Source: a bacterium
Lineage (GTDB): Bacteria > Arandabacterota > Arandabacteria > Arandabacterales > Arandabacteraceae
DNA: 6,210 nucleotides
Assembly (NCBI GenBank): GCA_029933125.1
Contig: JAOZOU010000033.1
Location: 1-6,210 of the forward strand
Reading direction: 5' to 3'
Below the pieces are notes generated by a model. It was not told where the DNA came from, ran no database searches, and saw only the letters and a program-made list of their open reading frames with translations. Below, in pieces: positions 1 to 6,210 of the stretch; positions within the stretch are counted from its first letter, which is position 1; each line of letters begins with the position of its first letter. Both the position numbers and the translations under genes were made by a program.

Positions 1-20
1 CCTGTGTTCGACAGCAATAG
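1..20 (+). repeat. Left terminal inverted repeat of the IS
   Basis: The sequence CCTGTGTTCGACAGCAATAG is the exact reverse complement of bases 1867-1886. Identity stops at base 21. Because the window begins here, an extension of the repeat further to the left cannot be excluded. This end lies downstream of the transposase stop codon. Confidence 0.9.
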
Positions 21-1783: not shown

Positions 1784-2314
1784 GTGTGCCTATGTTTTTT
1801 GAGATTTACCCTCACCTGTTTTGAACTATTTCACATGGTTAGGGGTCCAAAATCGATCGTATGTGTCTATTGCTGTCGAACACAGGCTGAAGAACTGGCC
1901 GAAAAGCTCATTGAGAACGCTTTGGAAGACTGCGTCTCTGCCTTCGACGGATTTGGCCGCGAGCTTTGCCGCGTCCAGGCCCAGAAGGCGGCGGACCCCA
2001 CCAAAGCAGAGAAGGTCAGCTTCCAGAATCTTGACGGAGCGAAAGCGAACATCCTTTCAACGTTTGGAATCGATCTATCTGCCTGCGTGACCTCCGACGA
2101 GTGGGCTGCCGCAGTTCGTGGCTTTCAGAAGCGCCACTTGTTTGCCCACAAGATGGGAGTTGTGGATGAAGAATACCTTGCCAAGACCGGCGATCCGAAC
2201 GCTGTGGTAGGACGAAAGATTAGAGTAGATGATTTGGACGTCCGCGCGGTTTTGCAGGTAATACGGAAGGTCGCAAAGCACCTATCCGAGAATCTGGTGG
2301 GGGGCATGGCATGA
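1784..2314 (+). CDS. HEPN-domain protein, 5' end replaced by IS
   Basis: The open frame is 176 codons from a GTG at 1784, but codons 1-34 lie inside the IS and are almost certainly not original. Host-derived sequence starts at A35. The remaining 142 residues look like a complete helical HEPN domain: a long first helix (35-68, with FDGFGREL at 54-61), the motif RHLFAH at R117-x4-H122 within FQKRHLFAHKMGVVDEEYL, and a final helix (149-171). R-x4-6-H is the ribonuclease active site of HEPN toxins and effectors, so metal-independent RNA cleavage is the likely activity. It is cytoplasmic, with no signal peptide or membrane segment. Neither the GTG at 1784 nor the ATG at 1835 has a well-spaced ribosome-binding site, and the host part has no early ATG, so an N-terminal portion of unknown length is missing and expression is doubtful. 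The stop overlaps the start of the next gene (ATGA), placing it as first gene of the operon. It may best be treated as a 5'-truncated pseudogene. Confidence 0.72.
   Translation: MCLCFLRFTLTCFELFHMVRGPKSIVCVYCCRTQAEELAEKLIENALEDCVSAFDGFGRELCRVQAQKAADPTKAEKVSFQNLDGAKANILSTFGIDLSACVTSDEWAAAVRGFQKRHLFAHKMGVVDEEYLAKTGDPNAVVGRKIRVDDLDVRAVLQVIRKVAKHLSENLVGGMA
1867..1886 (+). repeat. Right terminal inverted repeat of the IS
   Basis: The sequence CTATTGCTGTCGAACACAGG is the exact reverse complement of bases 1-20 and marks the transposase-proximal end of the element. The open frame of the following HEPN gene runs through it, so any protein begun upstream would contain residues encoded by the repeat. 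Confidence 0.9.
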
Positions 2315-3123
2315 CGATGGTCGCCGGAACAGAGATTTATGATACGGACGCCCCGCCGGTTACCGCTCGTGGAGTATTGTACACAGATGCCGAGCTTGAT
2401 GACGCCCTATCCGGTTCCGTGTCCCATATTCTCAAGGACACATCAGGGAAATCGGATATCGAGGCTATGCTGGCAGGAGTAGCCACAACCGATTTCGCTC
2501 AGAATAACCTGAAAACGGCCTTGGAGGCTACACCGCCACTGCATAGCTGGAGAGTGGGTGAGGGCCTCGCCGAGGCTTACTTGACAGAACATAAAGATTG
2601 CACGTTTCCGTGGCCATCCACTCGTGATTTGAGGAATCCTGATGCAAGCCCGGCGGGGGCAGACCTTGTGGGCTTTCAGAAGACGGACGCTCCAGAAAAC
2701 AAACACCGATTTGCCTTTGGAGAGGCGAAGACCTCCGATGAGGAGCGATATCCGCCGAACACGATGTACGGACGCCATGGAATGGTTCGCCAGCTTGAGA
2801 ACCTCAGAGACTCAAGAAAGACAAAGGATGCCCTTTTCCTTTACCTTGGGCATCATGCCCACAACGCACCGTGGAATCCATTGTACCAAAGCGCAGCTTC
2901 TCGATACTTGAACAACCCGACCGATGTGTCACTTTTCGGGGTTCTCGTGCGAGATGTCGACCCAAAAGAAGAAGATCTGAAGAGTCGGGCAAGCGCACTC
3001 GCTGATGGATGTCCATCAGCTACCACGATTCACCTTGTAGCAATGTACTTCCCAAAGGGATGTATCAACGCGTTTGTCGAACGAGCAACAAGAGAAATGG
3101 AGGGCGACCATGCTAATAACTGA
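2311..3123 (+). CDS. PD-(D/E)xK nuclease-like protein, HamA/DUF1837-like
   Basis: This 270-residue soluble protein has a recognisable PD-(D/E)xK nuclease core: acidic residues E84/E88 in a helix (VGEGLAEAYL), D118 in GADLVGF, the E138-x-K140 pair in a hydrophobic strand (FAFGEAKTS), and a following helix with Q161 (MVRQLENL). The C-terminal part holds two predicted strands (SLFGVLVRDV near 207-216 and TIHLVAMYFP near 239-248) and ends in a charged helix. Size, motif order and position directly before a Ski2-like helicase resemble HamA of the Hachiman anti-phage system, where HamA is the DNA-degrading effector held in check by HamB. That comparison is by memory of family architecture, not by alignment. 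The start is the ATG at 2311, overlapping the previous stop as ATGA with GGTGGGG upstream; the ATG at 2317 is an alternative. The gene is intact. Another nuclease family, such as a restriction-type endonuclease, remains possible. Confidence 0.72.
   Translation: MTMVAGTEIYDTDAPPVTARGVLYTDAELDDALSGSVSHILKDTSGKSDIEAMLAGVATTDFAQNNLKTALEATPPLHSWRVGEGLAEAYLTEHKDCTFPWPSTRDLRNPDASPAGADLVGFQKTDAPENKHRFAFGEAKTSDEERYPPNTMYGRHGMVRQLENLRDSRKTKDALFLYLGHHAHNAPWNPLYQSAASRYLNNPTDVSLFGVLVRDVDPKEEDLKSRASALADGCPSATTIHLVAMYFPKGCINAFVERATREMEGDHANN
3001..3020 (+). repeat. Perfect 9-bp inverted repeat inside the nuclease gene
   Basis: GCTGATGGA-TG-TCCATCAGC forms an almost perfect palindrome. As RNA it could fold into an 8-bp stem with a 4-base loop, about 90 bases before the helicase start. 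No T-run follows, so it is not an intrinsic terminator. It encodes ordinary residues (ADGCPSA), so chance cannot be excluded. Confidence 0.5.
3099..3104 (+). promoter_or_regulatory. Strong ribosome-binding site for the helicase gene
   Basis: GGAGGG sits 5 bases before the ATG at 3110, inside the last codons of the nuclease gene. It fixes the helicase start at 3110 and shows that the two frames overlap by design (14 bases). This suggests independent loading plus coupling to translation of the nuclease gene. Confidence 0.75.
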
Positions 3124-6100
3124 GGACGCCCTCAATCGCGTTGACCAACACTGGGCGCTGATAGCAGTCGGTATCGAGAAACGCGACCGCGCACTCGAAG
3201 TAGCCAAGGTTCGTCTCGTGAGATCGGCTGTTGGCCATCAGATGACTATTGCGTTTGATGAGGTATCCTCGGATGCGGAACTGGTCGAGCGAGTAGCGAT
3301 GGCGTATGAAGCGGCCGCCATTGAAGGTCTGGACGCTCTGATTTATCTTCCTGGCGACGCATCACGAGAGCAACTGCGTCAACAGGCCCAGGCAGGAGCA
3401 TTCAGGGCTTACGAACTCCTACGTACACTACCGATACCCTCCGACGTAGAAGAACGTATTTTCCACATTCTCCACTTGGCGGCCATAGCCTATTGCGGCG
3501 ATCAATGGCCGGACTTGAGAAGATGGTTACAGGATCATAAGCAGCAGACGAGACCGCCCTCAGTTGCGCACGCCACTTGGGACCGTAGGCTTCTTTATCG
3601 CCTATTCGATTGCTGGATACGTCTATTACGAAAGCGGGGCTGGGATGACCTTGATTCCATTCGTGAGATAATAGCGGGCCTTCGTAAGGATCAGGAGCAG
3701 TATGAAACTGTCGTACTCTCCAAAGAGAATGGTAGGGAGGGTCAGGCAATCGCCCTCCGTCTGATCGCCCTGTATCATTGGGCAAAAGCAACGGAATTAC
3801 TCGCTGTGTATACATTACAGGGCCAGCCGGCAGGAATTGACGCCGAATTGGACAAACACTTCGAGGCCGGGAGAAAATCGGCCCAGACCGCTCAGGACGC
3901 AACGCTCGATATCCTTATGCGGTGGTTACACGTCACGGCACGCCGAATGGTTGCCGGGTCTCTCTGGAATGTGGCGCAGGCAATTAACTCACGAGTAACC
4001 CGCTTTGTGGAAAGCATCACGAAAACGCAAGCTCTTTTTGAGTTGCTTCCGCCTCAGCGTGCTGCCCTGCAAGAACAGGGCTTGTTGGACCAAGCCAGTC
4101 GTGCCGTGGTCGTTGACCTTCCAACATCGGGGGGTAAGACAACCCTCGCCGAGTTCCGAATGCTGCAAGCGTTGAATCAATTTGAGGCTGACAAGGGGTG
4201 GGTAGCATATGTAGCACCGACAAGAGCACTGGTGGCACAACTGACACGACGGCTCCGTGAGGATTTCAGTACGCTTGGCATTGGAGTGGAGCAACTAACA
4301 GGCGCTGTCGAAATCGACTCATTTGAGGAGGCGTTACTTACACAAAATGATGGTGCTGTGGCCTTCCACATTCTAGTGTCGACACCAGAGAAACTCCACC
4401 TGGTAATCAGGAATAAGAAGGTGCCTCGACCCCTTGCTCTTGTGGTCATGGATGAAGCTCACAATATCGAGGATGAAGAAAGAGGGCTTCGAATCGAGCT
4501 GCTTCTGGCAACCGTGAAAAGGGATTGTACCTCCGCCAACTTTTTACTCCTCATGCCCTACGTTCCGAACGCAAAGGACTTAGCCCAATGGCTCGGAGCG
4601 GATTCTGCCAAGACAATCAGCATTGGGACATCTCCTTGGCAGCCCAACGAGCGGGCAGTAGGCATTTTCTCCTTGCGGCAGGACAATTCGGTTCGCGCAG
4701 GTTGGTCTTTATTGTTCGAGACTCTTACCACGACCCCAAAGACCATTCACCTCCGCGGTCAACACCAAGTGGGGCGAGTGAAGCCGCTTAACGTCCCCTT
4801 CAGCAAGGCCAAGGGTTTATCAACCCAGGCGGGGGCCATGGCAAAGGTGTTCTCAGAGCGAGGCACCAGCATTGCCGTTGCCCAGAAAATACCTGACGTG
4901 TGGTCTATGGCCCGTAAGATTGCGAATGATCTCCCAGTGTTCGCTGATGTTCCTCCCGAGATAGGTCTTGTCCAACGGTTCTTGCAAACAGAAATCAGCC
5001 AGGAATTCGAACTCGTTAGTATGCTGAGCCGTGGCGTAGGCGTTCATCACGCCGGCTTATCTGATGAGATTCGCTCGCTGATTGAATGGCTTGCGGAAAT
5101 CGGAAAGTTGCGAGTTCTTTGCGCCACGACGACGCTGGCCCAAGGGATAAATTTCCCGGTGGGTTCAGTCTTCCTTGCAACCCGCCTTTTCCCTTATGGC
5201 AAGGAGATGACCACTCGAGCGTTTTGGAACCTTGCAGGACGTGCCGGCAGGTTGAAGCAGGAGAGTGTCGGCATAGTGGGCATCGCTGCTGGGAGCGACT
5301 CAGAGGCAATACGGCAATACGTAAGTAGAGCGACGGGTGATTTGGTTTCACGGCTCGTAAGCCTGCTGGACGGAGTTGAGCAGGCTGGGCAACTCAATGA
5401 ACTTTCCTTAGTAATTCAACAGGAGCAGTGGGCAGATTTTCGTTGCTATGTTGCACATCTTTGGAATGAAAAGAAGAATCTTGACGATGTTCTAGCCGAG
5501 ACGGAGCAATTGCTACGCAACACTTACGGTTTTGGCAAGCTACAATCGCATTCAGACCATGCTGCACAACAGAAGGCAGAAGCTTTATTAGAGGCCACGA
5601 AGGACTACGCGCGCGAATTGGCGCAGAACCCGGGGCATGCGGCTCTTGCTGATGCTACGGGATTTGCGCCTGAGGGAGTTGCTGCGGCATTAGCAGGCTT
5701 GAATAGGTTGGAGAACAGGCTCGCGCCTGCAGATTGGGAGCCATCCAGCCTCTTTGGGGATTCCGGCTCTTCCCGTCTACCTCATTTAATTGGAATCATG
5801 ATGCGTATACCTGAAGTTGGGCGCTCTCTGGCGGAAATCAGTTCCGAGGGGCTGCAGCAACGGCACATTGCAGAAATGATGCAGGCATGGGTCGGCGGTG
5901 CGTCGATTCAAGACATTGCTCACACATTCTTCAGCGGTCAGAGTGGTACAAAGGCAATTACTAAGGCATGCAAAGCAATTTACAAGGTACTGACCAATAG
6001 TGGACCATGGGGGTTGTCGGCTCTGAGCAAGATGGGCTTGGATTTCGAGAATCTGCCGGAGGAACAAAGGCAGCGACTGAACAGCCTACCTGCGATGATA

Positions 6101-6210
6101 TATCACGGCGTCAAAACAGAGGCGGCTGTTCTCATGCGCATGAATAGTGTTCCAAGGAGCATTGCTGAATCACTTGGTAAGGAGTTCGAGCGGAACGCTG
6201 GAGAGCCTGC
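3110..6210 (+). CDS. Large Ski2-like SF2 helicase, HamB-like, 3' end outside window
   Basis: The frame is open from the ATG at 3110 to the right edge: 1033 full codons and no stop, so the C-terminus is missing from view. Motor motifs, in residues: Q-motif-like Q316; Walker A PTSGGKTT 338-345 (K343); Ia APTRALVAQ 369-377; Ib STPEKL 424-429; II DEAH 448-451; III region with M482-P483-Y484 where SAT is usual, followed by the Ski2-typical VPNAKDLAQWLG; a motif IV-like strand 586-603; GVHHAGLS 644-651; V ATTTLAQGINFP 672-683; VI NLAGRAGR 707-714. HHAGLS, TLAQGINFP and GRAGR together mark the Ski2/Hel308 group, ATP-driven 3'-5' translocases on DNA or RNA. About 310 helical residues precede the motor, and more than 300 follow it, including AWVGGASIQDIA near 926-937, reminiscent of the Hel308/Ski2 helical region. 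Paired with the upstream nuclease-like gene, it fits HamB, which senses DNA damage or ends and releases HamA. Helicase identity is very secure; the HamB role is inferred. Confidence 0.85.
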   Translation, partial: MLITEDALNRVDQHWALIAVGIEKRDRALEVAKVRLVRSAVGHQMTIAFDEVSSDAELVERVAMAYEAAAIEGLDALIYLPGDASREQLRQQAQAGAFRAYELLRTLPIPSDVEERIFHILHLAAIAYCGDQWPDLRRWLQDHKQQTRPPSVAHATWDRRLLYRLFDCWIRLLRKRGWDDLDSIREIIAGLRKDQEQYETVVLSKENGREGQAIALRLIALYHWAKATELLAVYTLQGQPAGIDAELDKHFEAGRKSAQTAQDATLDILMRWLHVTARRMVAGSLWNVAQAINSRVTRFVESITKTQALFELLPPQRAALQEQGLLDQASRAVVVDLPTSGGKTTLAEFRMLQALNQFEADKGWVAYVAPTRALVAQLTRRLREDFSTLGIGVEQLTGAVEIDSFEEALLTQNDGAVAFHILVSTPEKLHLVIRNKKVPRPLALVVMDEAHNIEDEERGLRIELLLATVKRDCTSANFLLLMPYVPNAKDLAQWLGADSAKTISIGTSPWQPNERAVGIFSLRQDNSVRAGWSLLFETLTTTPKTIHLRGQHQVGRVKPLNVPFSKAKGLSTQAGAMAKVFSERGTSIAVAQKIPDVWSMARKIANDLPVFADVPPEIGLVQRFLQTEISQEFELVSMLSRGVGVHHAGLSDEIRSLIEWLAEIGKLRVLCATTTLAQGINFPVGSVFLATRLFPYGKEMTTRAFWNLAGRAGRLKQESVGIVGIAAGSDSEAIRQYVSRATGDLVSRLVSLLDGVEQAGQLNELSLVIQQEQWADFRCYVAHLWNEKKNLDDVLAETEQLLRNTYGFGKLQSHSDHAAQQKAEALLEATKDYARELAQNPGHAALADATGFAPEGVAAALAGLNRLENRLAPADWEPSSLFGDSGSSRLPHLIGIMMRIPEVGRSLAEISSEGLQQRHIAEMMQAWVGGASIQDIAHTFFSGQSGTKAITKACKAIYKVLTNSGPWGLSALSKMGLDFENLPEEQRQRLNSLPAMIYHGVKTEAAVLMRMNSVPRSIAESLGKEFERNAGEP

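Follow-up and report, generated by a model that had tools for sequence, protein, structure and literature searches.

The 6,210-nucleotide contig JAOZOU010000033.1 from a bacterium of the Arandabacterota (assembly GCA_029933125.1), hereafter the window, carries the remnant of a HEPN gene broken by an insertion sequence (IS), followed by a nuclease gene and a helicase gene whose products resemble the HamAB proteins of the Hachiman defence system. The best explanation, with a probability of roughly 0.7, is that two independent defence modules lie side by side, one of which (HEPN) was broken by the transposon while the other is a HamAB-like pair. The combination of this HEPN gene with such a pair was unique to this contig among everything searched, and it is damaged. 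The assembly comprises 3.23 Mb in 176 contigs and belongs to a small phylum. The window spans this contig from end to end and so lacks both the left flank and the 3' end of the helicase gene.

Three overlapping frames lie on the plus strand (1887–2314, 2311–3123 and 3110 to the contig end), as had been described in an earlier reading of the letters alone (the sequence-only reading). The first two are joined by an ATGA overlap of the HEPN-frame stop codon (2312–2314) with the ATG of the nuclease (2311–2313). The third starts with ATG at 3110 and stays open through the contig end over 1033 residues, so that the proposed Ski2-like helicase of at least 1033 residues was confirmed as well. The motifs R-x4-H, D118/E138-x-K140, PTSGGKT and DEAH were each found in their frame. 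They exceed what chance would give: the nuclease residues are invariant in the nuclease alignment (72/72 rows) and R-x4-H is kept in the HEPN alignment (16/16 rows).

The nuclease-helicase pair

The nuclease of 270 amino acids (2311–3123, plus strand), here M23A, was matched by the PADLOC model PDC-M23A over residues 1–264 with E 6.8e-102. Its structure was predicted from 59 aligned sequences with a mean predicted local distance difference test (pLDDT) value of 90.7. In the PDB, HamA of the E. coli Hachiman system (8vx9_A) was the only significant match of this model (Foldseek E 3.4e-6, template modelling score 0.60). The structural alignment with HamA reached Z 17.2 with a root-mean-square deviation of 4.3 over 247 residues at approx. 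12% identity, while the first structure other than HamA, PaqCI, followed with Z 6.7. PaqCI is the nuclease most similar to HamA according to the Hachiman authors (PMC12278908). The third fold match was 8zue_A, a 531-residue chain from an E. coli Hachiman system with the HamA-like fold inside the longer chain.

The putative catalytic stretch D118...E138-x-K140 (2662–2730, plus strand) follows the same order as D119/E138/K140 in HamA. E138 and K140 bear identical residue numbers in both proteins, and a catalytic role has been reported for them in HamA (PMC12278908). The family alignment contained 72 rows, which represent 71 distinct nucleases, and D118, E138, K140 and Q161 were identical in all of them; the D-E(X)K residues of a Hachiman nuclease are thus present. 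In HamA, the segment 70–140 contains the motifs G-E, G-x-D and E-A-K almost where M23A has them, with the last of them (E-A-K) placed two columns off in the HMMER alignment of the two proteins. A profile-profile search matched HamA-like nucleases over the catalytic motif with E 0.0019 and a probability of only 14. Searches of Pfam and NCBIfam up to E 1 returned no match for the nuclease, and therefore no DUF1837, and the PADLOC model HamA1 reached no more than E 0.029.

The helicase M23B (3110–6210, plus strand) lacks its 3' end. The PADLOC model PDC-M23B matched it with 1432.8 bits and covers residues 13–1030 of the 1033 available. The absent C-terminus was estimated at approx. 55 residues from the closest relative, locus L012, with which the helicase shares 76% identity. 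A DEAD domain was detected (E 4.7e-23), and the PDB search returned Ski2, Brr2, Hel308 and HamB. HamB models matched at E 1e-64 to 1e-45, the best being HamB1 with E 1.4e-64. Both the Walker A motif PTSGGKT (4121–4141) and the DEAH box (4451–4462) lie on the plus strand and are conserved in two family alignments.

The sequence-only reading had called this pair Hachiman-like and had asked for profile searches against HamA and HamB. The likeness held for the fold, the catalytic residues, the gene order and the helicase profiles, but not for the sequence profile of HamA. A serious alternative, with somewhat less than an even chance, is to classify M23A-M23B under Hachiman as a divergent subtype: no fold match other than HamA is significant, a HamB-type helicase adjoins the nuclease, and gene order and D-ExK residues are the same. 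However, the HamA and DUF1837 sequence models stayed below significance, and the curated PADLOC models assign the proteins to PDC-M23 far above any Ham model. The pair was not filed as Hachiman because the HamA sequence-profile test failed. By its sequence it is best described as PDC-M23 and appears to be HamAB-like.

Related pairs were collected with alignment-based scans, which yielded 72 loci in the genome collection and four in viral contigs (76 in total); single-sequence scans of the viral contigs had found nothing. The hosts belong to the Pseudomonadota, Thermodesulfobacteriota, Myxococcota, Verrucomicrobiota, Acidobacteriota, Rhodothermota, Bacillota, Chloroflexota and Actinomycetota and include ANME archaea. 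The nuclease adjoins the helicase in 73 of the 76 loci. Type I restriction genes on the same strand were found within 8 kb of the pair in 28/76 loci, and in 14/76 the pair is nested between hsd genes. Many of the loci with no detected restriction genes sit on short contigs; among the 42 with enough flank on both sides, restriction genes were present in 15 and nesting was seen in ten. L012 shows the order hsdM-hsdS-M23A-M23B-hsdR, with hsdS and M23A joined by ATGA. The helicase tree implies 11 changes of the restriction-linked state, of which well-supported branches force at least ten. The M23 pair has thus repeatedly moved into type I restriction operons and out of them, in hosts from both Bacteria and Archaea.

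Some loci have features of their own. In L013 (12488–14583), a UvrD-like helicase and a DarT-like ADP-ribosyltransferase are encoded directly 3' of hsdR of an M23-bearing restriction operon. On plasmids of Rhizobium etli (L005:3755–7727) and Ensifer (L006:3755–7763), an M23B-like helicase is paired with a small nuclease of another kind (Q-x-K/E-x-K type), which matches no PADLOC nuclease model; these pairs may be a further HamAB-like subclass. The M23B helicases of one Marinobacter and one Halomonas genome (L019 and L020) are nearly identical, with branch lengths of 0.001 and 0, which suggests recent transfer. M23A is split into two pieces in L022 (1295–5349) and L058 (8189–9001), and in L022 the helicase is split too. 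These split frames, like that of a HEPN relative in L088 described below, reflect either decay or assembly errors.

The interrupted HEPN gene

Positions 1–1886 are occupied by a complete insertion sequence of the IS1634 family. Its terminal inverted repeats at 1–20 (plus strand, CCTGTGTTCGACAGCAATAG) and 1867–1886 (minus strand) are 20 bp long and 100% identical, and it encodes a DDE transposase of 544 amino acids on the minus strand (96–1730; IS1634 model E 2.8e-113). Both features required of this family, the IS1634-type transposase and the terminal inverted repeats, are therefore present. The left end of the element coincides exactly with the contig start. Such a start is common where an assembly breaks off at a repeat. 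Further copies, by which the ends could have been fixed independently, were not found in the eight genomes of the phylum, and plasmids gave only partial matches of 67–72%.

Homology to a family of HEPN proteins begins at 1886, directly 3' of the right inverted repeat, at a position that corresponds to residue 180 of the 327-residue closest relative, encoded in the viral contig L087. The remnant (1887–2314, plus strand; 142 codons, phase from 1886) is 47% identical to residues 180–310 of this relative. The close relatives in L007, L008, L087 and L089 have 314–340 residues, with zinc-ribbon-like CxxC pairs in the N-terminal half and a HEPN-like domain at the C-terminus; such pairs also occur in most other members of the family. 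Since homology starts at 1886 and the relatives carry this N-terminal CxxC half, the element lies at the junction of the gene's zinc-ribbon and HEPN halves. The first 180 or so codons of the relatives are missing from the window frame, and a search for the lost half elsewhere in the assembly gave no match. Thus, an IS1634-family element interrupts the HEPN gene and a truncated remnant remains. An intact HEPN gene with its start at 1784 or 1887 was considered and rejected, as 1784–1886 is IS sequence. The sequence-only reading had assumed such a gene with R117 and H122, a numbering that requires the GTG at 1784 inside the element.

The residues it had numbered R117 and H122 belong to the motif RHLFAH (2132–2149, plus strand), which fits the HEPN consensus Rx4-6H with a polar residue after the arginine. 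R[HN]xxxH was found in all rows of the family alignment, the window included. The fragment of 142 residues is predicted as a helical bundle with pLDDT 87. Foldseek against the PDB returned nothing below E 1 for this model, and a Pfam search of the fragment gave no match. With a second aligner, VIA-align, the top rows were mostly HEPN proteins, namely 4nqf as the best with Z 7.4, a value within the range that chance helical bundles reach, followed by Csm6, YutE and HepT-type toxins. From the motif and this fold ranking, the fragment was taken as a HEPN domain with moderate confidence.

The frame is open into the element, the RHxxxH motif is intact and the model of the fragment shows an entire HEPN-like bundle. 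These features would agree with a working shortened toxin that starts inside the IS end at GTG 1784 or ATG 1835. This is improbable, as approx. 180 N-terminal residues of the close relatives are gone, no promoter-like site was found around the IS end (1650–2350) and toxicity would be expected of an RNase that lacks regulation.

Elsewhere, relatives of the HEPN protein were found in plasmids, viral contigs and genomes, mostly alone or beside a P-loop NTPase, a phospholipase-D-like protein and others. Three loci of the family are linked to restriction. L087 (2027–11238) has the order hsdM-hsdS-ZnHEPN-TIR-Schlafen-hsdR, in which the Schlafen protein contains a Schlafen/AlbA domain and hsdS and the HEPN gene are ATGA-coupled. 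In L088, a frameshifted HEPN gene (4822–5966) adjoins a type IIG-like methyltransferase, and in L113 (288–4130) a type ISP restriction enzyme is followed after approx. 19 bp by a full-length Zn-ribbon/HEPN gene. This linkage agrees with the observation that many HEPN clades are associated with restriction systems, for which PrrC is the worked example (PMC3710099).

The sequence-only reading had placed an added HEPN ribonuclease in one system with the nuclease and the helicase. It had suggested a survey of homologous loci for a HEPN gene directly upstream, and had held that finding the gene next to the pair in this genome alone would speak against the idea. The survey gave this outcome: with phmmer and the family profile hidden Markov model, the window HEPN family was found in 0/76 M23 loci, and one conserved HEPN-nuclease-helicase system was rejected. 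No HEPN relatives were detected in ten genomes that hold M23 loci or in 45 genomes of the group of L015, another near relative of the helicase. In some 800 genomes from two further phyla there were six HEPN matches, and none of the four strongest, which were checked in context, lies beside M23.

It is nevertheless conceivable that the HEPN RNase works together with the HamA-like DNase and the HamB-like helicase in a true three-gene system, as one complex or as a regulated circuit that combines two effector chemistries, and that the contig represents a rare or damaged case. The HEPN frame is ATGA-coupled to the nuclease, HEPN genes recur in restriction-linked multi-pronged systems (PMC3710099), and L081 has, directly upstream of M23A, the gene of an abortive-infection-like protein that is unrelated but contains RNxxxxH. 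Yet the coupling is not specific, because it also joins hsdS to M23A in L012 and hsdS to the HEPN gene in L087. Members of the HEPN family occur in other places, either alone or next to NTPases or within restriction operons, and in none of the 76 M23 loci, and the window copy is truncated. Such a system is therefore unlikely and is left unsupported, since the combination was seen, among everything searched, only in this contig and in damaged form; two separate modules account better for the arrangement.

Other proteins were seen in single cases in the slot upstream of M23A, namely RhuM (L040 and L044), DUF4365 (L071) and the abortive-infection-like protein of L081. The RhuM-family protein is ATGA-coupled directly upstream of M23A (L040:958–1509 and L044:7650–8210; Pfam match shown for L040) and adds another type of putative toxin to the position held by the HEPN remnant in the window. 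The protein in L081 (5309–6208) has 300 residues and an RNYIHPH motif, overlaps the start of M23A and has no Pfam match. Judged by its motif only, it looks like an unrelated abortive-infection HEPN protein.

Probable original setting and proposed mechanism

Both modules most likely stood originally in a type I restriction operon, in the slot that separates hsdS from hsdR, because both families occupy this slot elsewhere with ATGA coupling. Defence cargo in this slot is known from darTG2 (PMC12255303). Two cassettes would have been joined, plausibly in this slot, before the IS entered the HEPN gene. For the window copy, the setting is inferred from the relatives in L012 and L087, as the restriction genes of this copy are missing from the assembly.

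Several points weigh against the reading as two modules with a HamAB-like pair from a restriction operon. HsdM and hsdR were sought in the assembly without a match; together with the missing left flank, this leaves the restriction-operon setting of the window copy unproven. L015, one of the two nearest helicase relatives (72%), lies outside any restriction locus. The sequence similarity of M23A to HamA is below significance in the HamA1 comparison (E 0.029) and in another one (E 1.2), and the structural Z scores of the HEPN fragment (up to 7.4) do not exceed those of chance helical bundles. No experiment on any member was found.

By analogy with Hachiman, the Ski2-like helicase M23B would survey DNA and load on single-stranded ends or damaged DNA, using ATP. 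Its motion would activate the bound D-ExK nuclease M23A, which would then degrade DNA, so that infection is stopped and the cell is lost. The Zn-ribbon/HEPN protein is probably a latent endoribonuclease that is held or triggered via its N-terminal zinc ribbons and, by analogy with PrrC, may serve as a backup when restriction is blocked. As the element removed the regulatory half, an orphan HEPN domain is left, the copy in the window would be either dead or unregulated, and the DNA arm is the only one that is possibly intact. A more far-reaching proposal, to which we give a rather low probability, is that the intact ancestor was a type I operon with composite cargo, made up of the Zn-ribbon/HEPN RNase and the HamAB-like DNase-helicase, whose parts acted as coordinated layers: restriction would cut, M23AB would sense the ends so produced and amplify the loss of DNA, and HEPN would fire if restriction is blocked.

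With this scheme, PDC-M23, so far an orphan computational candidate, gains a testable mechanism as a HamAB-like nuclease-helicase that may be activated by DNA ends. It can be asked whether DNA ends made by restriction trigger a second, Hachiman-like step of destruction. The useful outcomes are the HamA-like fold predicted for M23A, the repeated traffic of the pair through restriction operons and the Zn-ribbon/HEPN family, which is defined here as an occupant of the same restriction-operon slot.

Comparison with known systems

PrrC-EcoPrrI, a HEPN anticodon nuclease within a type I restriction operon, resembles the HEPN part in its arrangement, as a HEPN RNase gene accompanies hsd genes there and the closest relative of the window HEPN protein is encoded between hsdS and hsdR. 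PrrC, however, has a fused ABC ATPase (PMC3710099), whereas the window family has N-terminal zinc ribbons and no ABC ATPase, and the truncated window copy has no N-terminal domain at all. It thus differs from PrrC and RloC, in which HEPN is fused to an ABC ATPase. PDC-M14A matches the zinc-ribbon N-terminus of the full-length HEPN relatives with E 4e-13 to 6e-16, but its 152-residue profile excludes the HEPN domain, and the matched part is wholly absent from the window. DarTG2 of enteropathogenic E. coli occupies the hsdS-hsdR slot like M23AB in L012 and HEPN in L087, although its proteins and chemistry are unrelated (toxin-antitoxin ADP-ribosylation of DNA).

AbpAB, a proposed Hachiman variant, is likewise a nuclease-helicase pair with a HamA-like part. 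In AbpA, this part is described as catalytically inactive and carries an N-terminal fusion (PMC12278908), whereas M23A stands alone and retains its catalytic residues. Hachiman itself shares with the pair the plan of a small D-ExK nuclease gene ahead of a Ski2-like helicase gene, the fold match to HamA and the coinciding numbers of E138 and K140. It differs in that M23A has no significant HamA or DUF1837 profile match and in that many M23 relatives lie inside type I restriction operons. The closest known system is PDC-M23, one of the candidates to which guilt-by-embedding led Payne et al. (preprint, as cited in PMC12988326). Both window proteins match it over their full available length and far above other families, and the two genes are adjacent in the same order. 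No third gene is described for PDC-M23.

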